Of a DNA stretch of 64,000 bases, positions 9,590 through 56,175 are shown in pieces. Every line of letters starts with the position of its first letter. Position 1 is the stretch's first letter. The translations under genes and the position numbers were made by a program. Source of the DNA: Selaginella tamariscina (taxonomy: Eukaryota > Streptophyta > Lycopodiopsida > Selaginellales > Selaginellaceae); the NCBI GenBank assembly GCA_003024785.1, contig PUQB01000320.1, forward strand, positions 91,970-155,969, in the 5' to 3' direction. The notes beneath the pieces are model-generated. The model saw nothing but the letters and a program-made list of their open reading frames with translations, did not search any database and was not told the origin of the DNA.

Positions 9590-9912
9590 TCACAGTCGGC
9601 GTGCCGACTGAGAGAGCAGTTTGTAAGTCCCAGTCGGCATGCCGACTGGGCCTGGCATCAAAGGGAGCCCAGTCGGCATGCCGACTGGGACTGGCAACAA
9701 AGGGAGGCCCAGTCTGGGACTGGGAACGAAGCGAGGCCCAGTCAAAATGCTAGGTGGGACTAGAACAGTCAACCCTAGTCAAAATGCTGACTGGGGCTGG
9801 AACAGTCAACCCGGTCAAAATGTTGACTGGATCTGGAACAGTCCACCCCAGTCGGCCTGCCGACTGGGACGGACAACGAAGTCAGTCCGAGTCGGCAGGC
9901 CGACTCGGATTT
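9590..9912. repeat. Palindrome array of family 1, copy 1
   Basis: Perfect 16-bp palindromes AGTCGGCATGCCGACT or variants (CGTG, CCTG and CAGG centres) recur at about 9594, 9631, 9670, 9851 and 9889. Degenerate CAGTCAAAATG.TGACTGG units lie between them. Spacers share GGACTGGCAACAAAGGGA. The array lies between the divergent ParB/MTase-like and transposase genes, so it probably overlaps both promoters. A role as a binding site for one of the element's own proteins is inferred from position and symmetry. Confidence 0.85.
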
Positions 9913-10390
9913 CTTGCAACTGTGAAGAGATGTAAAAAGATGAACAGATCATGAAAGATCATGAGCAGATCATGAAGAAATCAGAAAATACTCACCCCCT
10001 CAATGGAAGCCTATTGTGATTAATCCCTGGAGCCACACTTGCTCCACGCTATGCCCCAAATGAGCCCCTGCTCCACGAAAACCTAGCTGCCCTAGCCGCC
10101 CTAATTGCAAAACCCTAGCCGCCCTAAATCAATTAAAAACCAACCTAATTTCTGTAAACATATTGCATGCATGATCGCCACTTGTACATAGTAAAACTTT
10201 TTAATTTACAAAAAACCTACCCAGACGCAGTAAATTAATTTCACTCTTCTACCCAGACGCACGCAATTAATATTATTTTTAATATTTGTCAATGAAATGA
10301 TTGCCTCACGACTAACAAACACATTAACCATCGTGTGTAATATGTTCATTGTCTTTGAATTTTAACTTTTGTTTGTTCCATTTTTGCTAC
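9913..10390. promoter_or_regulatory. Divergent intergenic region upstream of the transposase
   Basis: A non-coding gap of about 480 bases between the palindrome array and the transposase start. It holds repeated GCCCTAGCCGCCCTAA units (about 10085-10125) and direct repeats of CTACCCAGACGCA (about 10217 and 10250). The same features are conserved in copy 2 (17207-17690). No clear TATA box or start site could be assigned. Confidence 0.5.
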
Positions 10391-13300
10391 ATGGCAAGAA
10401 TCAGCTACAATGGTGTTGACAAGGACTTCCCTGCAGATGAAGATGGTATTGCATTTGTCTTTGAAACAGATCTCAGGTCTGCATTTGACATTCCACCTTG
10501 GCAATCTTTTAAAGTGCTGCATTTGATGTCTGTTGTTGGTGGAGATGCTGCGAATGTTGAGGTAGAACCAGAAGGGGCAAGAGCTAGCAGTTTTGTGTAT
10601 TACACACTTCTTCCTTCCAAAGGACCACTATTCCGGTTGGAGACAACAGATCGGGACAATTCTATGGTAACAATACTTCGCAATAGTCAGAGATGTAGGA
10701 TTGGGAAGCAACTGGTGGTCTCGTCATCGATTCAGCAAGTTGCTGAGGTCCCAGAAGATTGCAACGGAAATGTGATTTACGAGTTGCCAGCACACGAAAC
10801 AATGAAGGACAAGTACAAAGGGATGAATAGGAAGGATGGGTGTGATTACTGGACTCAACGCTGCACAACACATTGGAATGTTCCAGCTCGTGTTAGTCGC
10901 AGTTCATGTATTGGCCACATGAAATGCGTAAAGGAAACATGTCCGTTCATCAGCTTAAGTAAGAAAGCAAATGACTGCCAATTTAAGGGCACCATTGATA
11001 AAGTCCAGTTATCTTCAGATGGTAGAGTGCTTGGAATGAAGTGTGTGCATTGCAACAATGAGCCCCTTCTAGTGCAGACATGCTCCGTTGTTGCATATTA
11101 CATAATTCCAGATGATATCACATGCACGAGGCTTTTCATCCATCTTGGAGAACATCAACATCCACGTAGACCACCCGAATCCATGGTCTCTAAAGACAGA
11201 GCTAAGGAGACAATCAACAAAGCAGTCGCTGCAACCCCAAGAACTAATCAACGTGTCATAGAGTTTCAAGCAGCACGCAATATAATTTTGGAAAAACTGG
11301 TAACAGATTCTGGAGATGTATCATACGACAAGGTTCTGTCAGATCTACTACCACTCACAAATCACCGCCGGTAAGCAAAAAAATTATTATTTCCTTTTGG
11401 AGATGCTTAACCTTTCCACTGTAGAACAAGAGAATGGATATCTCAGGCTAGAACAAGAGACACTCGTTTCAAAGAAGGTTACGAAGGACTTCTGCAGTTA
11501 AAGAAGAAGCTATCAATCCCATTCATACATGTTATCCACATACCCGGAATGGACCTCAACGGAGCTGAAGAGCAGCCTTTAATCTTCAAAATGACGGTTG
11601 CCGGCCCAGGATCCGGAATAGACTACATTAGAAGGTGTCAATCTGGAGGTGATCTCGAACAGCAGTGGGTGGTGCTAGACCACACATATCGTATTGATGA
11701 TTGGTGTACACTGGGAATACATCTCTATGATCCATTGTAAGTATTAACATATCTATGTTTTAAAATACTTACTAATATAATGCACTTATGTTTGTGTAGT
11801 TTAAGGTCGATGGTGACACTTGCTTATGGTGACATGATCAGGGAGGATAGTGTGGCGGTGATCAAATTTTTGAACACTATGCTTCAAGTGTGCAGCAAGC
11901 AAGGACTTCATAATGTGAACTTTGGGGTTCATGTCAGATGAGTCAGGTGCAATTTGGTTAGCATTGCGTCAAGTTTTCAACAATGGGTCAAAGATGAAGA
12001 GGAAGAGAAAGGAGTTGTTTGTTCCATTACATGCAGTCAGTGCGTCAAGTTACAAAGAAGTGGATACTTGAGGAACACAGGGAGGAGCACATGAACCTTG
12101 CACGCTCATGGCCTGCAGCACTAACCAACCAAAGTTGGAACGACGAGTAATGTTGGAGTCATTTTGGGAAGGTAGGTCCAGTAACGTTAGTGCTTTGCAA
12201 ACATGGCTGTCATGGTGGGCAAGACATGAAGATCATATTTCCATGACAGAGATAATTGACTTGACAGAAGATGGTGTTGCGAATGTGCCTACCACTAACA
12301 ACTCCGAAGTTGTTCATGCAAGAGCACGAAGAGCAAGGCTGACGAAGCGTGTTCCTTTGTTGGAGGCAACAATGTTAGATTTAACAGATGCTGTTTTCCA
12401 AAGTGCAAAGGTCAAGGCATCATTTGAAGGGAGATATTCAGGCACAGGTCCTTCCATGGAAACTCTTCTGAAACGTGCACAGCAGAAACTTTCAGCGGGA
12501 AAATCAGTGTCTCCAACAACTTTTGCAAATCTTGTTAGTGATGAAGAGCATCTTGCAAGTCCAGAGTTTGCCTCTACAACAAATTTCGTGTTCGAACCGT
12601 TCGTCAACGTCAACTGGGGACCATGGGATTGATGCACTTCGTACACATAGACATGACACACAATATGCAGAACAAGTCATCCCAAATGCACGCAGGAAAA
12701 AACTCAAGTTTCAAGATGTCAATGTCACTGAAAGAGAGACGTTGATGACTCAGTGGGCCATCAGACGCATTGGGGAGGCAAGTCAGGTGAAATGTCTAGG
12801 TCTCACTCAGGACGGTAACAGCAAGTGTGGCAGACCCATAGGATATCCACATCGTGTACCGGCACCAGGATTTCACGGTAGACGGCAATATACAAATGCA
12901 TTTGGGAACATTGAGTTCACTCATCAGATGTTATGGTTCTGCCCACGCGATTCTTGTTGCTTCAGACGACCATATGCAGGGATTCCTCCTGAGAGTATTC
13001 CAGAAGTTCCAGAGGTTTGGCCAGTTCAAAAAGGAACAAACTTGAATGCAAATGAGGTTGAAGCTCTTCTGAAAGCAGGATTCAAGTTGGAGGGATTTGA
13101 AGAAATGGTAGACGACAGTAGTAGCCGAATGGATCGAACACCATCACCACCAAGAGGAGAGGGAGCACATAGAGTACCAACATACCATGGACGGAGTGTG
13201 CGAACACCAACAAGAATGTCCAAGGAACATGAGAAACATTACAACCAGGCAAAGATTCTTCAAGGTCGGATCAACAACGTGGAGGTGGTTCAAAGAGGGA

Positions 13301-13557
13301 AGACTGAGGCCTTCATTGTCTCTGCAGGCATGCAATCTGCTAAGGTAACAATTTCTACTGTTCCGTCATGCACTTGTGCAACTTTTCAGAAAGCCAAGAA
13401 CTGGAGCCCCTGCCAACACATGTATTTTGTGTACACTCATGTTCTTGGATTGGACCCAACGATTACTTACTTCTTACAGAGGCGGACCCTTACTCCAGCA
13501 GAAGTGCATCGGTTATTGGTTGATTGCAAGCGCAATGTCGAACCTGCGACCTTTTAA
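10391..13557 (+). pseudogene. SWIM-domain DDE transposase (MULE/KDZ-like), family 1 copy 1
   Basis: Exons about 10391-11370, 11425-11736 and 11800-13557. I chose the start MARISYNGVDK; an in-frame ATG 14 codons upstream is also possible. The N-terminal half has a cysteine/histidine-rich region ending in GEHQHPRRPP, like the GCM/WRKY-type zinc domains of Mutator-like transposases. A probable DDE core follows: first aspartate in VVLDHTYRID, second in GFMSDESGAIWLALRQVF; the glutamate could not be assigned. The C-terminus has a textbook SWIM finger, CTC then CQH, at 13372-13422. Two SUMO-interaction-like motifs, EIIDLTED and MLDLTDA, lie in the linker at about 12250-12395. The frame breaks near 11925 (missing G), near 12070 and near 12615. 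Copy 2 is correct at the first break. Closest family is uncertain: both Mutator-like and Zisupton/KDZ transposases carry SWIM. Confidence 0.75.
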
Positions 13558-13750
13558 GTCCAGTCGGTATAGTAAAGTCTAGTCGGCAAATAATTAGCGT
13601 TTTTCACTTGTTGGTCGGCATTTTATATTGAAAGTTAAAGATAATCTACTTGGCAGAATATTCTAGAATATTCCTTTATTTGACAGAATATTCTGGATAT
13701 TCGGGAATATGCGAAAAGCCCGTTGTACGAAGCCCGGTTTTTGCTAATCT
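13558..13750. repeat. Right subterminal region and inverted repeat of family 1 copy 1
   Basis: Starts with three AGTCGGCA/GGTCGGCA half-sites (about 13561-13622), then GAATATTC palindromes (13660-13700), then AAAGCCCG and AAGCCCGGTTTTTGC. Read inward this resembles the left end (CAAAAA..GGGCTT, GAATATTC) but is not identical. It is absent from copy 2. Confidence 0.65.
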
Positions 13751-13764
13751 CCATATTAACCGCA

Positions 13765-14381
13765 CGCATTTGCAAGGCAACATAATGTTTACACAATGAG
13801 TTCTATTCTTTTGTATGCCACGATTTTCATAGTATTCATACATTTCGTATGGACCCTTTCTCAAAGAAGAGAATTTGCCTCCGTCTCCAAGGGGCTTACC
13901 TTTGATTGGACACCTTCATCTCCTTGGAAGAAATGCCACATCAACGCTCTTTTGGCACTCTCTCAAAGATTCGTCCAATAATGTTTCTAAAGCTAGGTGC
14001 AGTTCCTGCAATTTCGTGTCAAACTCAGATGTAGTGAAGGAGATATTCAAAACAAATGATTTGACATTTGCTTCTAGACCACGTCTTATAGCTGGGAAAT
14101 ACATTGGATACGATTACCAAGATATGGCATTGCAACATATGGTGAGCATTGGAGAAACTTAAGAAGGTTATGCAACATGGGGCTTTACAACAGGGTGCCT
14201 TTAATCATTTTCATGGGTAAGGTCAGAAAGATTAAACAGATTCTAAGTTCTTTATACGTATACTCTTCAAGCAAATGAAGTGGTAAATATGAGAAGCATC
14301 GTTAAAGCTTCACGTTCAATGTCCTCAGCAGGATTTTGTTAGGTAGGAGATTCTCAGTAGATGACAAAGAGGCTCGTGAAT
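13765..14381 (+). pseudogene. Captured 5' fragment of a P450 gene
   Basis: Collinear with 3126-3754 of the P450 gene: anchor, LPPSPRG hinge, FKTNDLTFASRPRLIAGKY and the DDKEAREF region, ending abruptly inside exon 1. It shares the missing G (after QRF) and the shortened G run of the gene at 3131, but has its own indels. It keeps the in-frame start MSSILLYATIF that the resident gene lost. It is the loop between the two inverted transposon copies. The right junction with copy 2 falls at a short TTC microhomology. The differences suggest a paralogue or an older duplication rather than a very recent copy of the neighbour. Confidence 0.85.
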
Positions 14382-17206
14382 TCTTTGTTGGTGTTCGCAC
14401 ACTCCGTCCATGGTATGTTGATACTCTATGTGCTCCCTCTCCTCTTGGTGGTGATGGTGTTCGATCCATTTGGCTACTACTGTCGTCTACCATTTCTTCA
14501 AATCCCTCCAACTTGAATCCTGCTTTCAGAAGAGCTTCAACCTCATTTGCATTCAAGTTTGTTCCTTTTTGAACTGGCCAAACCTCTGGAACTTCTGGAA
14601 TACTCTCAGGAGGAATCCCTACATATGGTCGTTTGAAGCAACAAGAATCGCGTGGGCAGAACCATAACATTGATGAGTGAACTCAATGTTCCAAATGCAT
14701 TTGTATATTGCCGTCTACCGTGAAAATCCTGGTGCCGGTACACGATGTGGATATCTATGGGTCTGCCACACTTGCTGTTACCGCCTGAGTGAGACCTAGA
14801 CATTTCACCTAACTTGCCTCCCCAATGCGTCTGATGGCCCACTGAGTCATCAACGTCTCTCTTTCAGTGACATTGACATCTTGAAACTTGAGTTTTTTCC
14901 TGCGTGCATTTGGGATGACTTGTTCTGCATATTGTGTGTCATGTCTATGTGTATGAAGCGCATCAATCCCATGGTCCCCAGTTGACGGTTGACGAACGGT
15001 TCGAAACACGAAACATTTGTTGTAGAGGCAAACTCTGGACTTGCAAGATGCTCTTCATCACTAACAAGATTTGCAAAAGTTGTTGGAGACACTGATTTTC
15101 CTGCTGAAAGTTTCTGCTGTGCACGTTCAGAAGAGTTTCCATGGAAGGACCTGTGCCTGAATATCTCCCTTCAAATGATGCCTTGACCTTTGCACTTTGG
15201 AAAACAGCATCTGTTAAATCTAAATTGTTGCCTCCAACAAAGGAAACGCTTCGTTAGCCTTGCTCTTCGTGCTCTTGCATGAACAACTTCGGAGTTGTAG
15301 TGGTAGGCACATTCGCAACACCATCTTCTGTCAAGTCAATTATCTCTGTCATGGAAATATGATCTTCATGTCTTGCCCACCATGACAGCCATGTTTAAAG
15401 CGCTAACGTTACTGGACTTGCCTTCCCAAAATGACTCCAACATACTCGTCGTTCCAACTTATCTTGGTTGGTTAGTGTAGCAGGCCATGAGCGTGCAAGG
15501 TTCATGTGCTCCTCCCCTGTGTTCCTCAGTATCCACTTCTTTGTAACTTCAAGCACTAACTGCATGTAATGGAACAAACAACTCCTTTCTGTTCCTTTCA
15601 TCTTTGACTCATTATTGAAAACTTGACGCAATGCTAAACCAAATTGCACCTGAACTCATCTGACATGAACCCCGCAAAGTTCACATTATGAAGTCCTTGC
15701 TTGCTGCACACTTGAAGCATAGTGTTCAAAAAATTTGATCACCGCCACACTATCCTCCCTGATCATGTCACCATAAGCAAGTGTCACCATCGACCTTAAA
15801 CTACACAAACATAAGTGCATTATATTAGTAAGTATTTTAAAACATAGATATGTTAATACTTACAATGGATCATAGAGATGTATTCCCAGTGTACACCAAT
15901 CATCAATACGATATGTGTGGTCTAGCACCACCCACTGCTGTTCGAGATCACCTCCAGATTGACACCTTCTAATGTAGTCTATTCCGGATCCTGGGCCGGC
16001 AACCGTCATTTTGAAGATTAAAGGCTGCTCTTCAGCTCCATTGAGGTCCATTCCGGGTATGTGGATAACATGTATGAATCGGATTGGTAGCTTCTTCTTT
16101 AACTGCAGAAAGTCCTTCGTAACCTTCTTTGAAACGAGTGTCTCTTGTTCTAGCCTGAGATATCCATTCTCTTGTTCTACAGTGGAAAGGTTAAGCATCT
16201 CCAAAGGAATAATAATTTTTTTGCTTACCGGCGGTGATTTGTGAGTGGTAGTAGATCTAACAGAACCTTGTGGTATGATACATCTCCAGAATCTGTTACC
16301 AGTTTTTCCAAATTATATTATGTGCTGCTTGAAACTCTTGACACGTTGATTAGTTCTTGGGGTTGCAGCGACTGCTTTGTTAATTGTCTCCTTTAGCTCT
16401 ATCTTTAGAGACCATGGATTCGGGTGGTCTACGTGGATGTTGATGTTCTCCAAGATGGATGAAAAGCCTCGTGCATGTGATATCATTTGGAATTATGTAA
16501 TATGCAACAACGGAGCATGTCTGCACTAGAAGGGGGTCATTGTTGCAATGCACACACTTCATTCCAAGCACTCTACCATCTGAAGATAACTGGACTTATC
16601 AATGGTGCCCTTAAATTGGCAGTCATTTGCTTTCTTACTTAAGCTGATGAACGGACATGTTTCCTTTACGCATTTCATGTGCCCAATACACGAACTGCGA
16701 CTAACACGAGCTGGAACATTCCAATGTGTTGTGTAGCATTGAGTCCAGTAATCACACCCATCCTTCCTATTCATCCCTTTGTACTTGTCCTTCATTGTTT
16801 CGTGTGCTGGCAACTCGTAAATCACATTTCCGTTGCAATCTTCTGGGACCTCAGCAACTTGCTGAATCGATGACGAGACCACCAGTTGCTTCCCAATCCT
16901 ACATCTCTGACTATTGCGAAGTATTGTTACCATAGAATTGTCCCGATCTGTTGTCTCCAACCGGAATAGCGGTCCTTTGGAAGGAAGAAGTGTGTAATAC
17001 ACAAAACTGCTAGCTCTTGCCCCTTCTGGTTCTACCTCAACATTCGCAGCATCTCCACCAACAACAGACATCAAATGCAGCACTTTAAAAGATTGCCAAG
17101 GTGGAATGTCAAATGCAGACCTGAGATCTGTTTCAAAGACAAATGCAATACCATCTTCATCTGCAGGGAAGTCCTTGTCAACACCATTGTAGCTGATTCT
17201 TGCCAT
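14382..17206 (-). pseudogene. SWIM transposase, family 1 copy 2, C-terminally truncated
   Basis: Same gene as at 10391, on the other strand. It starts at MARISYNGVDK (17206) and keeps the cysteine/histidine region, the VVLDHTYRID segment and the linker. The reading frame reaches GFMSDE correctly where copy 1 is broken, then fails one codon later through an extra T. Other small indels follow (near 16555, 15470 and 15000). The last coding part, including the SWIM finger, is deleted at the P450 junction, so no functional transposase is expected. Confidence 0.75.
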
Positions 17207-17697
17207 GTAGCAAAAATGGAACAAACAAAAGTTAAAATTCAAAGACAATGAACATATTACACACGATGGTTAATGTGTTTTTAGTCGTGAGGCAATCATT
17301 TCATTGACAAATATTAAAAATAATATTAATTGCGTGCGTCTGGGTAGAAGAGTGAAATTAATTTACTGCGTCTGGGTAGGTTTTTTGTAAATTAAAAAGT
17401 TTTACTATGTACAAGTGGCGATCATGCATGCAATATGTTTACAGAAATTAGGTTGGTTTTTAATTGATTTAGGGCGGCTAGGGTTTTGCAATTAGGGCGG
17501 CTAGGGCAGCTAGGGCGGCTAGGTTTTCGTGGAGCAGGGCTCATTTGGGGGCATAGCGTGGAGCAAGTGTGGCTCCAGGGATTAATCACAATAGGCTTCC
17601 ATTGAGGGGGTGAGTATTTTCTGATTTCTTCATGATCTGCTCATGATCTTTTCATGATCTGTTCATCTTTTTACATCTCTTCACAGTTGCAAGAAAT
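17207..17697. promoter_or_regulatory. Divergent intergenic region, copy 2
   Basis: Reverse-complement counterpart of 9913-10390, with the same AGGGCGGCTAGGG repeats (one extra unit here, about 17470-17522) and the GTCTGGGTAG direct repeats. No gene seen. Confidence 0.5.
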
Positions 17698-18146
17698 CCG
17701 AGTCGGCCTGCCGACTCGGACTGACTTCGTTGTCCGTCCCAGTCGGCAGGCCGACTGGGGTGGACTGTTCCAGATCCAGTCAACATTTTGACCGGGGTTG
17801 ACTGTTCCAGCCCCAGTCAGCATTTTGACTAGGGTTGACTGTTCTAGTCCCACCTAGCATTTTGACTGGGCCTTGTTCGTTCCCAGTCCCAGACTGGGCC
17901 TCCCTTTGTTGCCAGTCCCAGTCGGCATGCCGACTGGGCCTCCCTTTGTTGCCAGTCCCAGTCGGCATGCCGACTGGGACTCCCTTTTGCCAGTCCCAGT
18001 CGGCATGCCGACTGGGACTCCCTTTGTTGCCAGTCCCAGTCGGCATGCCGACTGGGACTCCCTTTGATGCCAGCCAGTCCCCAGTCGGCATGCCGACTGG
18101 GACTTACAGCAACTGCTCTCTCAGTCGGCACGCCGACTGTGAGGGC
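17698..18146. repeat. Palindrome array of family 1, copy 2 (expanded)
   Basis: About eight units of AGTCGGC(N2)GCCGACT. Five consecutive ones (about 17919-18105) are spaced by roughly 40 bases of GGGACTCCCTTTGTTGCCAGTCCC. Copy 1 has fewer units in the same place, so the array changes length by unit gain or loss while the palindromes themselves stay perfect. Confidence 0.85.
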
Positions 18147-18224
18147 TAGTATGTTTTTTTAATTTTTATTAAACATCTTTGAACATTTATTACAGTTTTT
18201 TGTTAAACCTTATTGCTTTTGTAG

Positions 18225-21200
18225 ATGCGCTCTTCACAACGTTTACAAGAAAAGAAGATGAAGGAGCCTACTGAGAGAGAAGCAGAAGCTAGAGCTGCAA
18301 TTCAGAGAGGGCGTCGGGGTCGTGGGAGAGGAAGTAGGAAGCTGGCTGTGGTTCAGGAACAAGGACCTTCAAGTGATGCTCCAGTTGAACAGGCAAGCCA
18401 GCAGGACTGGTCAGGAGAGCAAGAGGATGTAGTTCAACCCCAACAAGAACAATCAGACTTTGTTGAAGAAGTTGAGGATGATGTCTTACCACAGGAGAGG
18501 AGCAGACAGAAGGCACACAAGCCTCATGCGCAGTGACTTTGTCGAGTGACGAAGAGGATGAACCCAAGACAAGAAGAGACGACGCAAAGCTGCTGGAGAT
18601 TCAGAGGCTGCTAAGAAGAAGAAGAAGGGAAAGCAGAAGTGCCAGATAATGAGGAAGTTTACAACATTGCAGCCAGCATGCATTCGGAGAGTGCAGTGCG
18701 TCTTCTCGCGAAGATCACAATCCGAGAATATGGAGAGGCACCGGATGTCCCTATTTGCCGAATTCTGGGAAATGAGCAGGTGCGGAGAGTCAATCCAGCG
18801 GATCTGGAATCTTTGACTAGGAGTTTCAAGAAGGCAGTTGGTTATTTGCGCAACACCACTCAGTTCATCCTTCAAGTTGGGGACCCCATGACAGATGCAG
18901 ATCTGGCAGCATTGAGAAGCGATGAAGCGATGTATGCTCAGCATTTGGCTTTTGAGGAGGAGCTTCAGTCTGACATGTTCCGGCAATGGGCACCAATGCT
19001 TTCGATGAAGAAGTTCATCTGTTGGGATGGTAATCACAGGCTAAAGGTGCTTCAGAAGCTGTACACAGAAGACACGGAAGATAAGAATCAGTGGGCAGTG
19101 AGAGTGCGTTCAGGCTTCATCCGTGCTGGGGTCATGGATAATCTTCAGCTTGTGACAATGTTTCAGCAAATTAATAGGTAAACATAGTGACCTCTAGATC
19201 ATAGGATTAACTAACTTCGAGATTTTCAAATATGCAGTTCCTCCGCAACGGCAGTGCAAACCACACTGCCACATCTTCTGCTATCTGTGAAGACATGTTG
19301 CACCAGTGAGGAGGGCACAGCGAAGATCTTGGCCAGGCTCAGTGACAAGGAACGAGATGACATAAGAAAGTGGAAGGAAAGCGCAACTGGACAACAAGCT
19401 TGGCATCCACTTCCGAATTTGATCTGTGCAAAGATTTTTTTGAGGTACCACGTCTCACACTTATATTACTTAGTTGATTACGTCTGTGAATTACAGAGTG
19501 AGATTGAGGATGATCTTGAGAAGGCTGCAAGGGCATCCAAAGGCAACAAATACCAGGAGCAACAACAGGTCTACATTAAGCATGACAAGCGCATGATGAA
19601 GATCTTAGCCATCATCGATCCTGCATTGGGTGAAGAGTGGTTCGACAAGGTGACCCAAATCACATGGAAACAATGCAGATGGATGGGGTTGGAAAAGCTG
19701 TACGCGCTTTCAAGGGCGAGAATTCCAAACGAGACGAGAATCATGTACTTCAATAAACTGGTACGTCTCGATCTGAAGAGAGAGCAAGAGACACTTGGAT
19801 TGCCGGGTGTTCAGGATAAGGAGTGGATAAGGTGGTTTACTATCGATTTGTATTGGCGGCAATCAGAGAGGAGGCAGTACAGATTCTCACGGGACTCATC
19901 GAGGATGGCGAGTGGAGCAGGCCGGTTACAGATTTCACGACTTGGTACGATGAAGTGCGGGTAAAATGCAAGAACGTGATGTTCCAGCCATTCCATGAGT
20001 GTGTGAAGTTCACTTACTCCATAGAGCCGAAAGAGTTCCTCGAACACGAAGAGACAGCAAGAAGGATGATTTGGAGGTAAGGATGATCTTCTTGACATTG
20101 TTACATTCTGACACTACTATATGTTCATTACAGGTATGTCGCAGCGAGAAAGGTGCCTCACACACAGACTATGGTATTCTGGTCAGATTACATGGAAGCA
20201 CCACACATGTGGTCGAAGACAAGATCTGGCCTGACAGAGTTCGACGTGTAACGTACCGTTCTGGCTTGATTATCCACCTGGGCAACCACCAACATGGGAG
20301 AAGGATCTCTACAATGAACACTCAAAAGATCTCCCATGCATCTCATGGGATCCGGCAGAGGTCGACTTCATTAAGAAGACAAAGGCCAAGGCAAAGCGGC
20401 GTCAGCCTGTGCAGCAGTCAAAGAAGACCTCAGATACAGTAGCTGGCACCTCCACTACTCGCGATCCAGCTGCCTTCTTCAATTTATCTGAAGTGCTACC
20501 ATCGCAGGGAACCATGGACATCAAGGATGACTTGGTCACATTCGTCCCTTCACTTGCTACAACTCGAGGTGATAATTTCTTGGCGATTGATGACATCGAG
20601 GAGATGCAACAGGCCGTGCTCACGGATGAGAAGGAAGAGGAGGTTCCTGACGCTAGACTGGTTCCTTATAGAAAAGTTCAGACACAGGTGGCCAGGTACC
20701 ATACAGCTGACAGCCAGACTCGCTACCAGCATATTGCGGGAGAATATGGTTTCAACTTGGTGATCTTCGACCTTCCAAATGGGACCTTGCCAGGAAATAC
20801 AACGAGTGATACGCCATACCTCTACCTTGATCCAGTGAAGTTCGATGAAGCACTCCAGTTTGCAGGTATGCATATGGCTGCAAATGGTTGGTTGGTTGTG
20901 TTTGCTGCAGCAAACACCTGGGATCAAGTTGTCCGAGCTGCAAGTGTGGTGGACCTTCAACTTGCTGCAACGTACTACATCTACAGAGGGCGTGGTTGGG
21001 GCTACCGCAACAAGATGAAGGTACTTTTTTCTTTATTCATGAAGTTCATTAATGATTTTTGATGTTTTAACAGGAGAGCATCCTGCTCCTTCTTGTCTTC
21101 CAAGATGCATCTAGAGGATTGCGCGATAATCCGCTGCGTTTGTCATCAACAATTCTTGTTGATAATCCTGAGCGGTTCCAAGAACCATGGTAGGCATTTC

Positions 21201-21536: not shown

Positions 21537-21621
21537 CAAGTGTTGAATTGTACTCTTTGGTGTTGAAATAAAACTTTAATAATACAGTATAAACATGGCT
21601 ATGATTAAATATTTTTTGTTG

Positions 21622-21743
21622 TTAATTGCCGACTGAGCCAAAATCCTAAATTCTAAGAATATTTAGGAATATTCTAAGAATATTCTGGTAGATTCTTTAG
21701 AATATTCCGGGTCCAAGCCCGGAAGCCCTCTTTTTGTCGGGAC
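21622..21743 (-). repeat. Terminal inverted repeat, right outer end of composite
   Basis: Reverse complement of 6020-6141, ending CTCTTTTTGTCGGGACTC. The following base 21744 starts AGATGTAAGG, the internal sequence of element A. Confidence 0.85.
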
Positions 21744-28343: not shown

Positions 28344-28362
28344 TTTGGCAACCACAGAGGGA
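28344..28362 (+). promoter_or_regulatory. Candidate primer binding site of element B
   Basis: TTTGGCAACCACAGAGGGA follows the LTR directly. TGGCAACC could pair with a tRNA 3' end, but the tRNA was not identified. Confidence 0.4.
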
Positions 28363-46100: not shown

Positions 46101-46675
46101 TCGAAGACGTCTGCGAAATCGGCATACTGCTTTGGTAAGGCAGGAGGAACAGAAACATCCTTAGCAGAGCAGGGATAGACTTTGATCGCGAACACGGATG
46201 CTGGGTCATGTCGGCTATCTTTCTTGAACTGCTTCAAGGTGATATGCGAGACTCGAAGTGGAGGAGGAACTGGAACAGGATCGGAATCAAAGAGTGTGGC
46301 TGGAGTTGAAACAGCTGGGAAACTGTTCATGAAACGTTCTCTCCAACCAGGATCCACCAACTCGATCCACGGCAAACCAAGGATAATCGTAGAGTCTGGA
46401 ATAGAAACAACACTGAAGGAGATGTTGCACACAGCACCGCAAGCAACGACCTCAACGAACTCCGTGTCATTTATTACCGCTCCAGATTTGATATCTCGTC
46501 CATCAACGACCCGTACAGAACCAGGAGTCTTCAAAGGATGTAGACGGATCCCGTGCCTGACAGCAAAATTCTTGTCGATGAAATTTGCGTTCGCTCCGCT
46601 ATCCACCAAAGCTTTACCAGAGAACTCCACCTCTGGTGTCTTCAGCTGCACCGGAACATGGAACGGCTTGCACAC
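43140..46675 (-). pseudogene. Pol of chromovirus C
   Basis: Runs right to left. Retropepsin ALVDSGANANFID (about 46620-46580). RT from [17 protein letters not shown] (about 45890) through VIMYLDDILIF (YLDD, about 45585). RNase H-like EADASDFAIGG (about 45135) and VYCDHKNLQYW (about 44930). Integrase HHC-C region with [15 protein letters not shown] (about 44345) and core FWQRFLERLRITGKLSTAHH near 44035-43990. C-terminal GPFRIIKKLSE (about 43525) and a chromodomain remnant (AAILDSKLVRG, then HYFVD and IGYPPGERTW, about 43330-43230) that targets related elements to heterochromatin. 44186-45712 is open for 508 codons. An in-frame stop sits in the integrase D-G-P-Q segment (about 44070), two stops are in the chromodomain, and frames shift near 45700 and 44230. 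Confidence 0.85.
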
Positions 46676-46776
46676 CTTCGTGGATGGAATGGATCCAAGA
46701 TGAGGAAGGGAAGATGTTATGAGTGAAGAGCCTTGAGGAACATGAGTTGTTCCACGGCAATCCAGCCGGACGGCTC

Positions 46777-47676
46777 CTATTCGGGCTGGATCTTCTCGTT
46801 TCCCGGCAGCACAGCAAGGGCCACTTCACGAGCTTGTTTTGGACGTCGATGACAATTCTCCAACTTGTGGTACGGGTCCCCACAGTACAAACAAAGCTTG
46901 TACTGAATCCGCTTCTGACGTTCGGTTGGCAAAAGCTTGCCTCGGCGTGATCGCCCTAATTCCATCGGGGATGGTTCTACTGAGGAAGATGATGAATCAG
47001 CAGATGAGGGAACAGGGACTGCAGAAATGGAAGAAGACGGCACCAAGAAGAAAGAAGGATGCCGACGTTCTTGTTTCCGCTCGATCAACCGGTTGTCACA
47101 ACGAATTGCCAACTCGATCATGCTGGTGAGGGTTTGGAACCGCAAAATTCAGCAACATGTCTTTGACCTCGTCCTGCAACCCCGACCGGAAAACCTCCTT
47201 GAGAGCACGATCTCCCCATGTGACATCACAAGCAAGAAGTTGAAACTTCGATGCGTACTCTGCTACCGACATACCCCCTTGGTGAAGCTGACGGAGTTTG
47301 GTGATGGCAGCACTCTCACGATCCACGTCACTGAACATCGCCGTGAACCGTTCCACAAACTCGTCAAAATTCCCAAGGATCGGATCATTGTTCTCCAGCA
47401 AGGCTGAGAACCATGAAAGAGCAGAACCAGAAAGCAGCGACCCGATCAATCCAACCTTAATGGGTTCTGTGCTGTAGCGCCTCGGCTGCATCACGATCCG
47501 CAGACGAACTTGATTGAGAAAACCTCGGAACTTCGATCGGGTACCATCGAACTTTTCGGGCATGCTGATCTTGGCTCTGGAGAATTCGCACGCTGTCGGA
47601 GCTGATCATTCTCCATGTAGTTGTTGAGCTGCTGCTGGAGGGCAGCAACTTGCTCATGAAGAGCATGCTCGGACAT
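46777..47676 (-). pseudogene. Gag of chromovirus C
   Basis: Starts MSEHALHEQVAALQQQLNNY, a short coiled coil; the capsid-like region follows after a frame change (PEKFDGTRSKFRGFLNQVRL near 47560, then LRQLHQGGMSVAEYASKFQ near 47290). It ends in a CCHC knuckle, CLYCGDPYHKLENC, near 46855-46895. The YCG.P.H knuckle and PE.FDG capsid resemble the Sushi/Mart type of chromovirus gag rather than the usual angiosperm CRM or Reina type (from memory). Two frame breaks. Confidence 0.75.
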
Positions 47677-47835
47677 GATGAGTCGAAGAAGAAAAATCAA
47701 AAAGAAAAAGAGAAGAAAATCAAAAAGAAAAAAAAAGAAAAAATCGAAAAGAAAATTGAAAAGAGAGAAAGAAAGAAAATGGGATCGATGACAAGCGGAA
47801 ACAGAAGCTTGTCACTACCTCAGAATCATTCAAAC

Positions 47836-48197
47836 TGTCACGACCTTGTGCAAAGGGCGAAACCTTTAGAACAAGGGTGGAACCTTGAAAGGAGGAGATT
47901 GTATTCAAGAAAGAAATGAATACAAAATGAAACACAAGGCCGAAGACTGGTGTTGAATGATTCTGAGAAACCTGGAACTGGAACCCTGTTTATATATCTG
48001 AGGTCCTGAGATTGTATGGTCCACAACTGGTCTGGAATGTGTGGTCCACAACTGGTCTGGAACATGCGTATGAATATACGCCTTGCTGTTGATGGTGTAG
48101 TTCAGCATAGGATCATACGGACCAGTTGGTTAACACATGTGTGTGTTAGCCAAAAGGTTCGGGTTCAAGTCCTTGTGAAAGGCAAAAAATAAACCCT
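47836..48197 (-). repeat. 5' LTR of element C (right in the window)
   Basis: Near-identical to 42751-43139 except for one fewer 24-bp unit, an insertion TATATATCTGAGG (about 47991-48003) and a diverged outer end (AAATAAACCCTCCT). Confidence 0.8.
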
Positions 48198-48588
48198 CCT
48201 AATATAGGGTCTAAAATATTAATATTTAAATATAACATTATTAATTAAAAATTTGTAGTAGTAATAAATATAATAATATACAAATCCTATAATAATATAG
48301 TCAATCTTCCATATCGTTTTATAAATTTATATAGTTAAGTAAACAATTTGGTACTATTATTAAAGAGTTTATAATAATTATGAATATTAAATATACGATA
48401 TTTTATAATTTTGTAATTGCTTTAAGCTTTAAAAAACATACATTCTCTTGCAATTTTGTTAATCGTGACTTTATCAACGCTTTTGACATTCGAATGAATT
48501 TAACATTTATAAAACATGCTGGGTCTTTTTGATTGGGAGACCATGTTTTCTCTAGGCATCCATTATATCTTTCGCTCTCCTTCTCGTG
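48198..48588. other. AT-rich spacer
   Basis: Between chromovirus C and the family 2 transposase remnant. Short A/T words, no gene seen. Confidence 0.6.
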
Positions 48589-51505
48589 TCACCTTTTTTG
48601 TGGTTTGAACCATGCAACCTTAACCATACTATTTTTTATGATTACTTCAGGTGTGTCGATAATTTGACCCATCCAAATAGACTGATTATATGACACATCT
48701 GGAGTAATGAGAATCATCATTAGTTTTTGAAGATCCTTGCAGCAATCAAAGTATGCTTTAGGTTTTTGGTTCCTTTGTCCAACAAAGTGTGGGGTTTGCA
48801 CTTCCACATCACTACTAGCTTTTATGTCATTTGTGCTCAGTTATGTCATTTCAATCTCCTCTCGCCACCTTGTTTTAGGCTAAAAAGGGTGTTGCAATTC
48901 TCTACTTGTGACAGTAGGCCCTTCTAACTCTTGAACAACAGTCTCCCAATAGTCGACCATATGCTTATATAGTTCTGAGTTACCAGTTGCCTTATCAGAA
49001 TTCTTTGACATTGATTTTTGAAGCTCTTGTTCCTTGAGCTAGGCACTCAATGGAATAAGGTCTGGTTGTCCTTCTGGAGAAGTGGCTTTCCATCCTCTCC
49101 ACTTTTAAAGAGCATTAACCCCTCTTTTGGTAACCACTTCTGCTCTGATGGCCATAACTTGTACTGCATATAGGTATACCATCTCATATGGAGAAAAAGA
49201 ATTGTAGTGGCACAAGGTGACCAACTAAAGAATCACTCCCCTCTTTTATGTACTCGAGAAATTTTTTGAAGTCTGGCACCTCAGTCACAAGCAAAGCACA
49301 ACTTTTTTTGGAGATGCAATTTTCAAAAAAGATTCATCATATGCGGTAAGGTAAGTGCACTTGTCCTTTTTGTAGAGTTGGAGACCTTGCTGAAGAACGC
49401 ATCAATATTTTCATGAGTGTGACCAACCATAAGGAAACTGGGCGTGATTGTCTCAAACACACCTTTGGCAACAAGCATTGACAAGTATGCTAGCACATAT
49501 CTAGAAAATAAAAGTAAGTATGAGCTTAAGAAACCCTTAAGTAAAATGATTTACCTATTTTTGTTCTCGCCTGCACAATTATCCATCTATAAAAGCAAAT
49601 GACGAGGAAGCTTATTTTGTTAATGTTGAAAACACATGTACACTATTTGAGCTAGATCCCTCCACTAAACCAGAACTCTCAACAAGGCCATCTGTTTTTT
49701 TGTGCAAGCTGTTGACAATGCCTCTCATATTTCCCAAGTAGCCTCAAGTGCAGACGTGTTCATGAGAGCATTATGTAAAGGTTGAAGGTGTTGTTTCTTT
49801 ACTTTGAGATCACTGATAGGACTTGTCTGTGAGTGGGCTTCAAGGTTTCTGAAACACATGGCCAACGACCCAATAGTGAAATTGGAGTCGCTAGACCAAT
49901 GTGGAAGTGAAAAGTGTCCATATAACTCACAACTGTGTCTATGTTAACACACATGTCAATGAAATCGGAAGTTTCATGACATTTTCAAGGCACTTTGGTG
50001 TTGCAATGAGCTTTGGAATGCTGGTCTTTGAATGATCCATCTTGTCATGGATCATGCACAAGTACTCTGATGGGCGTGACACAGAAAGCATGCGGTGTGC
50101 ATAATACTGAGACTGGCAAGTTTGTTGTGCAATCATGTGGGCCTCCATCTTCTTTTGAATGGCAGTGATCACCACCAAGGTTTTTGCACAAGCCTCTGCA
50201 GCCTTCAATGATGTAAAGTGTCACACTTGGAAAAGCTAAAGTGTTTTGCAATCTCCACATCCTTAAAATGAAATGAGTATTCCATATGTTGTTGAAGGTA
50301 CCAGTGCAGATTGCTTGAAGCCCCATCAAACTGAGGCACTTGTTTACATGTTCACACATCTTCAATTGAGTGTAGATTGAAGGCAAAACTTTGAGATTTT
50401 CCCTGACCCCTGCATTTGTGGTTCGGCATTTGTGAGGCATCCTATCTACATTTGCTTCCACAAAAGCCTTAAGTATCTCTATGGCTGCCATAATGTGAGA
50501 GCGGGTTTTAACCAAGCGAGTGTTCCCATGTACTGAGGTTCGCGCTCCATCTAGCCACTCATCCCTCCGACGGTAGAACGTGGTCTTTGGGATCCCGTAT
50601 ATACTGTACCAAGCTTTGAAGCGATGGCCACCTTATTAAATACCATGGATGTACTCTGATAACCTATGTCCGAGGCCATTCCATCAATACACCCAGTTAG
50701 TGCAACATATATCATGCCTTTGCTTTTGGGTGAATGTACGAAAGACATGTCTACATTGGGTAATTTCATTCCGGTCTACCATCTAACAACACTTCTTCTT
50801 GCAACAATCAATTGTGGAAATGCTCGTAACACTTTCGGAAGATATAGGATCCATCTTCACCCTCTTACTGAAACTTGCAGGGGAAGATCTACAACCCATG
50901 AATCGCCTTTTTCTTACAATAAGACCAATGCAAGGAACCTCTTCAAATATGAGTTGTTCTTCCGGGTTGTTATTATTGAAATTCAACCCAGAATATGTTG
51001 AACCATCTTGTCGTCTTAATTCAGATATTCGCCACCTCACGAGGGATACAGGATGCAATGTGCCATTAGGTGAAACCTCTGTCACAATTATACCCACGAA
51101 GTCGGACCCTAGTTTCTTTGCTGACACTGCTTCCATTGGATTTATAGCTGTGATGATGCCTCTCCCAACCTCAATCTCATGAAGAAAGAGAATCACCTCA
51201 TCCATCATATCATGCAAGCCATCATTTTGTAAACTCGTGCTATTATTTGTTTATGACTCTGCATATTCTGTGTCAGCCTTGACTTCATGTAAATTCCACA
51301 ATACAGGAGAACCCTCCTCAAATTCCATTCCCAGAACCTCAACATACTTGTAAATGTTGTTCACCCATACGTACACACAAAATCCTTGGGCAATATTATG
51401 ACATGATGCATTATCATCTCGAACTTCCACAATTCCAGTGCCAACTATCTCGTTGTTCAGAAGAAGACATACTTTATCTCCAGTATTAAACATATTGTCA
51501 TGCAC
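48589..51505 (-). pseudogene. DDE-type transposase of family 2, broken
   Basis: Pieces read from 51505 leftward. Two related domains, GDKVCLLLNNEIVGTGIVEV (51480) and DEVILFLHEIEVGRGIITAI with LGSDFVGIIVTEV (51205-51080), resemble the domain called DUF8039 in plant transposase-associated proteins. Next comes a helix-turn-helix-like IPKTTFYRRRDEWLDGA (about 50605-50550), VEANVDRMPHKCRTTNAG, and a catalytic-core segment CMIHDKMDHSKTSIPKL (about 50055-50005) followed by SSDSNFTIGSL (about 49890). I remember I-H-D-K-M-D-H-x-K-T from uncharacterised transposases of mosses and lycophytes. A C-terminal part with EVQTPHFVGQRNQKPKAYFD lies at 48800. Frameshifts are numerous. The duplicate at 61990-62191 reads through the join between the two N-terminal domains, so they belong to one protein. 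Confidence 0.65.
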
Positions 51506-51639
51506 ATAAATAATTGTGTTATTTATGATATCTGTTTATGCAATATTTTTAAGAAATCTGAACTGCAGTTGCTTAATAATATGCATGTGCAATAATACAT
51601 AATTATGTATAGAGATAATATCTCATGCTTGATTAATAC

Positions 51640-52440
51640 AACTGATGGGTGGGATTAATCCCGCCCACAACTCCCTCCAATGAGGAATGGTGGGTGGGAT
51701 TAATCTCGTCGCCGATTCCCTCCAGCGAGGAAGAGTCGGCGGGATTAATCCCACTGCCGATTCCCTCCGCGAGGAAGAATCGGCGGGATTAATCTCACTG
51801 CCGGATCTTCCTCATCGGAGAGAGGCGGCAAGATTAATCTCGCCGCGGACTCCCTCCAACGAGGAAGAAGCAGTGAGATTAATTCCGTCGCAATTCCCTC
51901 CGACGAGGAAGAGGCAGCAGGATTAATCCCATCGCCGGATCTTCCTCGTCAGAGAGAGGCAACGGGATTAACCCCCGCAACTCCTCCGACGAGGAAGAGG
52001 CGATGGGATTAATCCCGCCCACAATCTTATGACGGGGAATAAGTGGCGGGATTAATCCCACCCAAACTCTCCGAAGCTATGATTTCAAAGAGATCTCGGG
52101 ATAAATCCTGTCCACAAATCTTTAAAACAGGGAATTGGTGGCGAGATTAATCCCGCCACCCTTCTCTGCCTCCTAGAATGGTGGGCGGGATTAATCCCGC
52201 CGACAACTCATTCTAATAAATTCAGGTAACTCTTCAGTTATCGGCGGGATTAATCCCGCCGCTCTTTTTCAGAGGCGAAGAAGCATTGCCCAAACTAATT
52301 CTGCTATGGAGAGATGGTGACGGGATTAATCCCGTCACCTCTTCTAAGAAGCAAAAAAAAAATGGCCAGATTAATCCCGCCGCCCCGACTAACCGAGAAT
52401 ATTAAGTTAGAAGGATATTTAAACGGGATAAATCCCTAAC
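51640..52440. repeat. Decayed GGCGGGATTAATCCCGCC array, left
   Basis: About 20 GGGATTAATC-type units every 35-45 bases. Most deviate at one or more CpG positions (TGGGATTAATCTCGTC and so on). Spacers share CTCC..CGAGGAAGA. Lies 5' of the minus-strand transposase gene. The CG-to-TG/CA pattern is what methylated cytosine decay would give. Confidence 0.8.
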
Positions 52441-52649
52441 AGAATATATTATAATCCTAATGCATTCCTAAACCCCTAAATTCTAATTTAAGAGAGAATA
52501 TAAGAGAGTGAATCTTTATATATATCTAAATTTATTTATAATACTTGTAAATAGCATTGAAGGCGCCATGCTTTTTTATAAACAATAACACCCAATTTAA
52601 TGTCGCTCCTGAGCTGATCATTATGAAGAAAAAGAAGATCTGAAGAGTT

Positions 52650-54048
52650 AAAAATACAGAAATGAAGAAACCCTTGTCGGAGAAAGAACCAGATCTGAAT
52701 TTAATAGGAAATTAAATGCATTTTCAAATTTACATATCAGACCGACAATACTTATGTCAAAAATTCAAATTTTTTAAAGAATAAAAAATAAAATTTAAGA
52801 TGAATTGACACAAATAACCAACACTTTGACATATATATTCTCCAATTCCAATAAGTGTTATAAAATTGCATTTAATGTTATTTAAGTGGTTCAAGCTGTT
52901 TAATATTACGAAATTTTAGTAATTATTTTACATTCTTAATGTTCAAGTATATATTATTAAGTTTATATTATATTATATATAATATATATATACTTATACA
53001 ATAAATAAATTGATATAATATTATGTATCATTTAAAATATATTCATAGTCTGTTTATTATTATTATTTTCTTAATTTCTTGAGTAATTAATTTATATTTC
53101 CTATTATTAATGGGATATTCTTTATTATTTTCTTAATATTTGAAGAATATTCCAATATTAAACATGATTATCATAATTAATTAGTCTTATTCTTAATTAT
53201 TTCAGTAATTAATTTTACATTTGTATATATTAATGGGATTTTCTCAATTAATTTCTTATTATTTTAAGAATATTCTTATGTTAAACCTTATTCAATATTA
53301 AATTAATATATATTATTAAAACTATATATGACTATATATTAGATAAAATGATGTATTATTATGTATAATTTAAAATATGTTCATAGTGTGTATTAATTTA
53401 ATATTGATAATAAGGTTTAACACATGAATATTCTTGAAATAATAACAAATTAATTGAGAAAATCCATTAATATATACAAATGTAGAATAATTACTGCAAT
53501 AATTAAGAACAAGACTAATTTAATTATGATAATCAGGTTTAATATTAGAATATTCTTCAAATATTAATAAAATATTAAAGAATATCCCATTGATACTAGG
53601 AAATGAAAACTAAATACTCGAGTAATTAAGAAAATAATAATAATAAACAGACTATGAATATATTTTAAATGATACATAATAATATATCAATTTATTTATT
53701 GTATAAGTATATATTTATATATATATATATATATAATATAAATATACTTGAATACTAAGAATGTAGAATATAGTCTAAAATTTCGTAATATTAAACAGCT
53801 TGAATCACTTGAATAACATTAAATGCAATTTTAAAATACTCATTAGAACTGGAGAGTATATATGTCAGAGTGTCGGATATTTGTGTCAACTCATCTTAAA
53901 TTTTATTTTCTGTTCTTTTTAAAAAATTTGAATTTCTGACATATGTATTGTCGGTCTGACATGTAAATTTGAAAATGCATTTAATTTCCCACTCAAATTC
54001 AGATCTGGTTCTTTCTCCGGCAAGGGTTTCTTCATTTCTGTATCTGTA
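52650..54048. repeat. AT-rich foldback, two arms of about 660 bp
   Basis: 52650-53316 and 53392-54048 are inverted copies. For example AGAAAGAACCAGATCTGAATTT on the left matches AAATTCAGATCTGGTTCTTTCT on the right, and the pair TTCAAGCTGTTTAATATTACGAAATTT also recurs inverted. The centre is near 53350. Multiple GAATATTC words occur in both arms. No coding potential. A third copy of the left arm runs from about 63640 to the window end. Confidence 0.85.
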
Positions 54049-54060
54049 AATTTTTTTTTA

Positions 54061-54200
54061 TTGATCTATCTCTCCCACACACACGCACACTGCTTTACAC
54101 ACACACACACACACACAATATATATATTATATATATATTATGTGTACCAGTATCTGTAAATTTTTTTTATTGATCTATCTCTCCCACACACGCGCACTGC

Positions 54201-54254
<54 letters not shown>

Positions 54255-54948
54255 ATCAATGCATATTAACAAATAGTATACAACACTAGTTTATATATAT
54301 GCTTATATATTCATATGGGTTATATATCTATATACACACATATATATATGTGTGTGTTTTCTGTATAATTTTATTTATTTATTAGTTTTATCTCTCGCAC
54401 ACACACGCACACTCCTGTGTATGTATATGTGTGTGTGTGTGTGTTTGTTTATCTGTATGATTTTATTTGTTTCGCTCACACGCATACACACAATATACAT
54501 ATACACATATATATATACCTATATACATATATACATACAACACTAGTTTATATATATGCTTATATATTCACAGACTCTCTCTCTTTCTCTATAGATTATA
54601 TATCTATATACACACATATATATGTGTGTGTTTATCTGTATAATTTTATTTATTTATTAGTTTTATCTTTCGCACACACACGCACACTCCTGTGTATATA
54701 TATGTGTGTGTGTGTGTTTGTTTATCTGTATGATTTTATTTGTTTCGCTCACACGCATACACACGATATACATATACACACATATATATACCTATGTACA
54801 CACATATATTAGGTGTACCAGTACTGTATAATTTTATTTATTTATCTATCTCTTGCACACACACGTACACTCCTATACATACATACATACATACATATAT
54901 ATATATATATACACACACACATATATATGTGTGTGTGTTTTTATCTCG
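54061..54948. repeat. Microsatellite block (CA)n/(TG)n/(TA)n
   Basis: Alternating CACACA, TATATA and GTGTGT tracts in three larger repeats of about 270 bp with shared CTCACACGCATACACAC and CTCCTGTGTATGTATATG words (54352-54545, 54600-54810). Translated frames here are low-complexity and not genes. Confidence 0.85.
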
Positions 54949-54957
54949 CTAAGCCCC

Positions 54958-56175
54958 TCGAGCGGCGGGATTAATCCCGCCGCTATAGGTTTATAGCCTC
55001 GGCGGCGGGATTAATCCCGCCGCTATATGGTTGGGGCCATGGCGGCGGGATTAATCCCGCCGCCGAGGCCCTTCACGCAGGCTATGGGCGGCGGGATTAA
55101 TCCCGCCGCTCTACGACAAACCGAAGAGCGGCGGGATTAATCCCGCCGCCCATGGCCTGCGTGAGGGGCCTCGGCGGCGGGATTAATCCCGCCGCTCACC
55201 CATGCCCTGCGCGGAATGCGGCGGGATTTATCTCGCCGGCAATGGCCTGTGTGAAGGTTTAATGGGCGGGATTAATCCCGCCGGATTCCGCGCAGGGCAT
55301 TTACAGGGATGGGCGGCGGGATTAATCCCGCCGCCGAGGCCCCTCACGCAGGCCATGGGCGGCGGGATTAATCCCGCCGCTCTTCGGTTTGTCGTAGAGC
55401 GGCGGGATTAATCCCGCCGCCCAGGGAATTCACGCAGGACATGAACGGCGGGATTAATCCGGCCCCACGCTCATGCCCTTCGCGGAGGGCGGCGGGATTA
55501 ATCCCGCCGCTCAGGCACTTCCGCAGGATATAAGCGGCGGGATTAATCCCGCCCCCACCCATCCCTGTTCAAAAATGCCGCAGCCAATATATATGTGTGA
55601 GCGCATGATTTACGAGAGGGCGGCGGGATTAGCCTCCGAACCTGGCATTACCCGCCATTGGTATGTTGAATCAATCCCGACTAACTCTGTCTGAGACGGA
55701 GAAGGTTTACAAAATACCAATGGAGGGAACTGAGAAGGGTGGTGGGATTAATTTCACCATCCCTTACATGGTGGGCGGGATTAATCCCGCCGCGTACGCA
55801 TGCCCTGCGCGGAATCGGGCGGGATTTATCCCGCCGCCATTGGCCTGCCTGAAGGGCCTAGGCGGCGGGATTAATCCCGCAAGATTTCGCACAGGGCATT
55901 GGCGTTCGGCGGGATTAATCCCGCCGACTAAGGCCCGAGTGAAGGGCCTGGGAGGCGGGATTAATCCCGCCGGACGCCAATTCCCTGCGGAATCGGGCGG
56001 GATTAATCCCGCCGCCATTGGCCTGTCTGAAGTGCCTAGGCGGCGGGATTAATCCCGCCCGATTCCGCGAGGGAATTGGCGTCCGGCGGGATTAATCCCG
56101 CCGCATAGGGACCGAGTGAAGGCCCTGGGCGGCGGGATTAATCCCGCCGAGTCTTCAATGCCTGTTGGAGGAATG
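54958..56175. repeat. Well-preserved GGCGGGATTAATCCCGCC palindrome array
   Basis: About 23 units of an 18-bp perfect palindrome, mostly extended to GCGGCGGGATTAATCCCGCCGC, spaced by 20-30 bases. Spacers recur in both orientations (CATGCCCTGCGCGGAATC, GGCCTGCGTGAAGGGCC, CTACGACAAACCGAAGAG), so larger inverted repeats exist, for example 55041-55194 folding around the centre at about 55118. It lies just upstream of the plus-strand ParB/MTase-like gene. Single weaker units follow to about 56510, and one occurs inside that gene's second intron (58262-58282). Length is variable in related arrays at 51640 and 62530. Confidence 0.9.

Follow-up and report, generated by a model that had tools for sequence, protein, structure and literature searches.

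The 64,000-bp stretch of Selaginella tamariscina DNA analysed here (contig C639:91970-155969, part of a 300.7-Mb genome; hereafter the window, in whose coordinates positions are given unless the contig is named) contains two transposon families in which arrays of short palindromes lie between the transposase gene and a divergently transcribed accessory gene, termed P1 in family 1 and P2 in family 2. The question raised by this locus is what these arrays are for and which protein reads them. The answer favoured here, tentatively and at somewhat less than even confidence, is that the sites of each array bind the accessory protein encoded by the same element, with an anti-silencing role like that of VANC in VANDAL transposons.

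The family-1 site is AGTCGGC-NN-GCCGACT, repeated at a spacing of 38-40 bp (once 45) within the runs of the window, and the family-2 site is GGCGGGATTAATCCCGCC, mostly spaced 40-50 bp. The family-1 pattern was found with ≤2 mismatches at 13 window sites (9594-9905 and 17701-18138) and the family-2 pattern with ≤3 mismatches at 49 (51648-52381, 54964-56469, 58263 and 62584-63339); 100 shuffles gave 0 sites for either pattern. Perfect palindromes with arms of ≥7 bp and a G+C content of ≥25% numbered 43 (7 of family 1, 28 of family 2 and 8 others), and the same count in 50 per-kb Markov shuffles had a mean of 3.06 and a maximum of 8. The array of family-1 copy A (9594..9905) holds 5 sites at ≤3 mismatches and a degenerate unit at 9777; that of copy B (17701..18138) holds 8 such sites and a degenerate unit at 17815. 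The family-2 element has two array blocks, with 16 sites at ≤5 mismatches in block 1 (51648..52381; 2 perfect) and 28 in block 2 (54964..56469; 19 perfect), and a single palindrome in an intron of P2 (58263..58280), which has 2 mismatches and is identical in a second family-2 copy. Outside the arrays and this intron site the window is free of near matches to either palindrome.

The first-pass annotation had described one layout for both families, with arrays between divergent genes, and this was seen in copies A and B and in family 2. The arrays lie between divergent start codons, and the exons of the gene models contain 0 of the 13 + 49 sites. In copy A the array is located between P1 (minus strand, start 9508), 86 bp upstream of it, and the transposase gene (plus strand, start 10391), an arrangement repeated in the inverted copy B. 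The family-2 arrays are located between the transposase gene (minus strand, 51535-48406) and P2 (plus strand, 56848-59948), the two blocks being 2.6 kb apart, one beside the transposase start and the other upstream of P2. Details of that description were corrected: family 2 has two array blocks and one P2-intron site, the elements span 6020-13751 (copy A), reach 21745 (copy B, truncated at 14380) and span 42495-61689 (family 2), and another family-2 copy, truncated and with an array of its own, starts at 61689. Its statement that each family has a palindrome of its own was upheld, the palindrome being identical in all copies seen of a family. Between the two family-2 blocks lies a 1.4-kb inverted repeat (52648-54049, 88% identity to its own reverse complement), which is probably part of the family-2 element because a portion of it recurs at 63665-64000, in a further family-2 copy that is truncated.

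The perfect family-1 palindrome occurs 1142 times in the genome and the reversed pattern 0 times. All 8 fetched array loci, which were those around the first-listed arrays among the 1142 palindromes and not a random sample, carry transposase, array and P1 in divergent order, the transposase being degraded in L027. Two more family-1 copies are located on the same contig outside the window; one of them runs beyond the limit of the DNA fetched. Ten copies were compared (A, B and L020-L027). They hold 5-13 sites each at ≤3 mismatches, 88 in total; 87 of the 88 have the same seven outer bases on both sides, and the central dinucleotide is AT in 58 and another in 30 (three units per copy). Constant outer bases around a variable centre are what two half-sites separated by an unconstrained spacer would show.

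Lone half-sites are also found at the ends of family 1. The 8-mer AGTCGGCA lies close to the left end of all 10 copies (6127..6134 in copy A, plus strand) and close to the right end of all 8 copies in which this end is visible (13581..13588 in copy A, plus strand); the right end was not seen in L021 and is missing in B. Within the window the 8-mer is found outside the family-1 arrays only three times, each time close to a family-1 end, and in the ten compared loci it occurs nowhere beyond arrays and ends. The 7-mer AGTCGGC has 5 further window places, 4 of them in or beside the family-2 arrays, and shorter forms show no excess over the null in the window. Since the family-1 copies share descent, the terminal half-sites are not independent events. 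Target duplications of 9 bp, identified by eye, flank 6 of the 8 copies with both ends visible and were not seen at L024 or copy A. Mutator-like elements make target duplications of 8-11 bp, a range that includes the 9 bp of family 1. The high palindrome number together with the exact target duplications suggests that family 1 was recently active. The only distant relative met was L033 (contig C639 63137-65766), a degenerate element with transposase matches of 38-40% identity and a P1 match of 43%; no array of perfect palindromes containing G+C was found beside it in the DNA fetched.

The second family-2 copy, starting at about contig position 176846, preserves the order of transposase, two arrays, intron site, P2 and phosphatase gene; a pattern search did not find its right terminal repeat. 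DNA identity between the two copies is 95-96% in three P2 exons, 93% in a transposase exon and 80-82% in the arrays. The numbers of sites are 16 + 28 in the window copy and 16 + 17 in the second copy, with an identical palindrome. Identity between array 1 and the truncated copy is 79% in the linkers, as against 95% in the transposase region next to the array and 87% on its opposite flank. The A/T positions of the ATTAAT core were kept in 92/93 cases versus 189/228 for linker A/T positions, and in the other direction in 87/88 versus 176/229, counts for which sites were called by similarity and repeat units may be aligned out of register. The faster divergence of the family-2 array DNA than of the adjacent genes, with the ATTAAT core kept, was counted in favour of docking.

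P1 is the better characterized of the two accessory proteins. The gene of copy A (6261..9508, minus strand) was modelled with exons at 9508-8550, 8489-7649, 7592-6706, 6652-6552 and 6499-~6261 (splice model), and that of copy B occupies 18225..21533 on the plus strand. A composite P1 was used for searches because both window copies have frame breaks, at different places. The order of domains is a region with a ParB-like motif followed by a methyltransferase domain at the C-terminus. The methyltransferase exon of copy B (21216-21500) matches PF01555 with an E-value of 5.8e-10, a match restricted to positions 165-220 of the 221 in the profile, its C-terminal part. Among solved structures P1 matches M.MboII (E 4.1e-4), and its S-adenosylmethionine (SAM)-binding motif aligns with the beta-class enzymes M.MboII, DpnA and CcrM. 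A hidden Markov model (HMM) of five bacterial methyltransferases, built without P1, matches P1 at 1.2e-21, a score that is not independent evidence because the five enzymes were chosen by similarity to P1; the Pfam match is independent. The catalytic motif of N6_N4 methyltransferases is [DNS]PP[YFW]. P1 departs from it, with DLPN for the DPPY of the family: D and the second P are kept and the aromatic residue is replaced by N. Judged by these sequence comparisons, the C-terminus of P1 is a relative of beta-class DNA methyltransferases with an altered catalytic motif. P1 may methylate the element, but the DLPN motif makes catalysis doubtful. A perfect 20-bp palindrome, GTGTTTGCTGCAGCAAACAC, is present in the P1 coding region of both copies (6809-6828 and 20898-20917) and twice more on the contig.

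The ParB side of both proteins is less clear. The motifs DGNHR of P1 and SGQHT of P2 resemble the ParB superfamily by eye only, and comparisons with Pfam, NCBIfam and PADLOC up to E 10 gave neither protein a ParB-family match. Single-sequence AF2 models of both putative ParB regions were unusable (pLDDT 47.4 and 38.6). Protein-database searches with P1, the P1 ParB exon and P2 gave no relative at E ≤0.1, 1 and 1, respectively; the length limits of the P1 and P2 searches would pass over fragments of a single exon. No relative of P1 or P2 turned up in viral and prokaryotic genome contigs; single palindrome matches occurred on 4 and 1 viral contigs. The label 'ParB/MTase-like' given in the first-pass annotation holds only for the methyltransferase part of P1; its ParB part has the motif only, and P2 passed no ParB or methyltransferase test.

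P2 (56848..59948, plus strand, exon model) as a whole has no Pfam match at E ≤10, no phage tblastn match and no match to the methyltransferase HMM (filters off); no NCBIfam or PADLOC match was obtained with its ParB-like part. Similarity between P1 and P2 does not reach significance (of 12 block comparisons the best gave z 2.5, reached in 3/200 shuffles). The earlier suggestion that gene and array form a shared, exchangeable module is not supported, because P1 and P2 are not detectably related.

P2 has an N-terminal domain in common with the family-2 transposase (blastp E 7.8e-6 in a one-sequence comparison); the score was reached by 0/2000 shuffles of P2 residues 1-120 and by 1/300 shuffles of whole P2. 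The domain is covered by no Pfam family and is, from sequence, a candidate common DNA- or partner-binding domain. The family-2 transposase gene (48406..51535, minus strand) encodes this domain in an exon at 50786-51250 and has a DUF7869 exon at 49326-49550 (PF25273, E 6e-20). The family-1 transposase gene (10391..13554, plus strand) is Mutator-like by eye, with D-x-T-Y and C-x-x-H motifs and a C-terminal SWIM-like finger (SWIM E 0.0077, below the Pfam cut-off). A 542-aa composite of this transposase gave no Pfam match, the Mutator-like (MULE) transposase domain included. As had been noted from the sequence alone, the transposases of the two families look unrelated, no similarity being found in the pieces compared (z 0.43).

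The promoter position of the arrays, their private sequence, the turnover of units and linkers around a constant core and the dimer-type symmetry of the sites argue that the arrays are element-specific protein-docking clusters. The likeliest predicted binder is the accessory protein, a choice that is itself put forward as tentative, with confidence a little short of even. In the family-1 site a pair of inverted 7-bp half-sites, AGTCGGC, flanks a free 2-bp centre, the form that would be expected for a dimer. P1 or P2 would bind the array in the divergent promoter region of its own element and become concentrated there. The bound protein would keep this element open to transcription or mark it, as VANC does for VANDAL, and through its own palindrome each family would be kept from acting on the other and on host DNA. 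That the centre of the family-1 site varies speaks against a need for a methyl group on the central A.

Several observations weigh against docking by the accessory proteins. One degenerate unit (4 mismatches) is present in 10 of 10 family-1 copies, outside the count of 88 sites, and the cut-off of ≤3 mismatches itself favours the constancy seen in 87 of these. The outer-arm G/C positions of family 2 are hardly better kept than the linkers (p 0.04 and 0.50). C>T/G>A changes make up 32/39, 11/18 and 22/45 of the site changes in arrays 1, 2 and 3; the ATTAAT core, which lacks both C and G, is immune to this frequent kind of change, so that its constancy may be partly mutational. Compensatory changes, considered as a sign of dimer binding in family 2, gave a negative test: symmetric double changes show no excess over chance (4 versus 3.5, p 0.47). 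The observed/expected ratio of CpG in array linkers is 0.73-1.08 in family 2 versus 0.20-0.34 in family 1; given this disagreement between the families, CpG retention was set aside as a possible sign of protection. Pfam gave no match at E ≤10 to P1 beyond PF01555 and none to P2. Lone half-sites at both family-1 ends fit the transposase equally well.

Because of these terminal half-sites and the shared N-terminal domain, the transposase is the main rival binder. It would bind both palindromes and terminal half-sites, join the ends of the element and repress or activate its own promoter. TnpA of maize En/Spm acts in this way through a repeated subterminal motif. The restriction of AGTCGGCA outside the arrays to family-1 ends supports this explanation, and the domain common to P2 and the family-2 transposase means that both could read the same site. 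Against it, the arrays lie inside the element, at a distance of thousands of bases from its ends; the 7-mer is found at five other places in the window and its shorter forms are not in excess; no clear core of the palindrome is seen at the ends of family 2; and the ends of related family-1 copies are not independent. The transposase is accordingly regarded as a possible reader, with a minor though real chance of being the right one. A host transcription factor driving both divergent genes from promoter or enhancer sites in the arrays is improbable. The arrays are indeed positioned in both promoter regions, and GATTAATC, which we take to resemble a homeodomain-type site, was counted for this explanation; the two families, however, use unrelated sites, near matches are absent elsewhere in the 64 kb, and all eight fetched loci were family-1 elements, though these were the first-listed among the 1142 palindromes, so that others may lie near host genes.

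Less probable again is the explanation that the palindromes are selfish or neutral satellite units, multiplied by slippage or hairpin-mediated duplication and bound by no protein. Variation in unit number among closely related copies, the lack of excess of compensatory symmetric changes and the tolerance of degenerate units are in line with such an origin. It accounts poorly for perfect palindromes at the same place in two unrelated families, for half-sites that are near-fixed around a free centre, for a core that is kept while the linkers diverge, and for the P2-intron site kept in both family-2 copies. The first-pass annotation had proposed a parS-like system. True partition or segregation, in which the ParB-like protein would load onto the palindromes, spread from them and serve inheritance or clustering of the element, is very improbable. 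The motifs of P1 (DGNHR) and P2 (SGQHT) speak for it by eye only, and no ParB-family match was found at E up to 10. In ParB proteins parS is read by a helix-turn-helix domain and GERRxR is the CTPase motif; Pfam found no helix-turn-helix in P1 or P2, and the putative ParB proteins contain no GERRxR-type motif. No ParA-like gene was seen among the open reading frames scanned, in which the family-1 transposase gave one sub-threshold ParM match (E 0.11), and an integrated element needs no partition. The argument for parS was therefore weak.

Returning to docking by the accessory proteins, palindrome and protein clade could be compared for co-variation in n=2 families. Free variation of the palindrome within one protein clade, which the first-pass annotation had named as the outcome that would speak against cognate binding, was not seen in ten family-1 and two family-2 copies, a weak test because the copies are close relatives. 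It is doubtful that at least two unrelated families of one eukaryotic genome independently reached the same self-recognition design, consisting of a private palindrome array in a divergent promoter and an accessory protein, ParB-like/methyltransferase-derived, that reads the array, nucleates on it and marks or de-silences its own element. If true, Arabidopsis VANC would have a counterpart of prokaryotic origin, a second answer to the same problem. Should the arrays be docking sites, they would provide a candidate target sequence for the methyltransferase-like accessory proteins that have been reported from algal transposons. The palindromes of the two families would offer a way to ask how a transposon tells itself from the host and from other transposons, and if family 1 was recently active, as suggested above, the system may be testable in living cells.

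The window, whose spliced genes mark it as eukaryotic, contains two inverted family-1 copies, followed by one family-2 element with a nested gypsy retrotransposon and a truncated family-2 copy. Family-1 copy A (6020..13751, plus strand, 7.7 kb) has the ends GAGTCCCGAC...GCTAATC[C]TC, which were placed by comparison with 8 other genomic copies. Copy B (14380..21745, minus strand) is inverted relative to A, truncated at 14380 and 97% identical to A. The copies form a large inverted pair (6020-21745) and differ mostly by single-base changes and indels; the pair could be due to nested insertion, rearrangement or an assembly effect. A cytochrome P450 gene (3127-4685), with pieces at 3511-4047 (E 4.2e-14) and 4341-4685 (E 8.6e-23), and a partial second copy of it (13766-14383) directly adjoin the family-1 elements; the P450 pieces appear plant-like.

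The family-2 element (42495..61689, plus strand) is 19.2 kb long including the gypsy element (42751-48195). Its terminal inverted repeats (42502-42522 and 61661-61681) are identical at 20 of 21 positions, and no clear target duplication was seen at 42495-61689. A third family-2 gene, of the FCP1/NLI phosphatase-like type (60179..61399, plus strand; PF03031, E 3.6e-6), has a relative in the second copy and is a possible third accessory gene. The truncated copy (61689..64000, minus strand) comprises a transposase N-terminus and an array (62539-63339) and is 82% identical to 50788-53007. Pfam detected long terminal repeat (LTR)-retrotransposon reverse transcriptase/RNase H remnants at 25013-25444, 31484-31981 and 44186-45712. 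Repeats of GAATATTC, which we take to be heat-shock-element-like, cluster towards the termini of both families. Of the 17 in the window, 9 are located at 6065-6094, 13656-13693, 42620-42639 and 61490-61518, another 3 lie at the end of copy B (21667-21707), the foldback contains 4 and the remaining one is at 63942.

Like ParABS systems (e.g. phage P1 ParB/parS), both families have repeated sites beside the gene of the putative binder; unlike them, they are integrated eukaryotic elements with no ParA seen among the open reading frames scanned and no recognised parS-binding domain. P1 shares the C-terminal SAM-binding motif of the beta-class methyltransferases M.MboII, DpnA and CcrM and differs from them by DLPN for DPPY and by a long N-terminal extension. 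VANDAL elements are Mutator-like, as family 1 appears to be. The targets of VANC are reported to be fast-changing tandem arrays of family-specific motifs in noncoding DNA (PMC5735166, PMC10398659), and both families here likewise have motif arrays in noncoding DNA beside an accessory gene. The VANC motifs are not described as palindromes in those texts ('palindrom' occurs 0 times), and P1 and P2, compared through Pfam, have no match to a VANC domain. Transposon genes of the ParB-methyltransferase type are already published. In Ectocarpus, Sola1-1_Ec32 has a ParB-like/DNA-methyltransferase accessory gene on the strand opposite the transposase; similar red- and green-algal accessory genes are cited in the same source, and the authors suggest that the accessory protein binds and modifies its own transposon (PMC12477816, in whose text 'palindrom' is absent). 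By its published description, the accessory gene of Sola1-1 resembles P1 in having an N4C/N6A-type methyltransferase domain and in lying opposite the transposase; the families here differ from Sola1-1 in belonging to other transposase families and in that a methyltransferase domain was not detected in P2. A literature search, with most subscription papers outside its scope, brought up no account of palindrome arrays in elements of this kind. By analogy, the nearest functional parallel appears to be VANDAL/VANC, and the nearest in gene content the ParB-like/methyltransferase accessory genes of algae.

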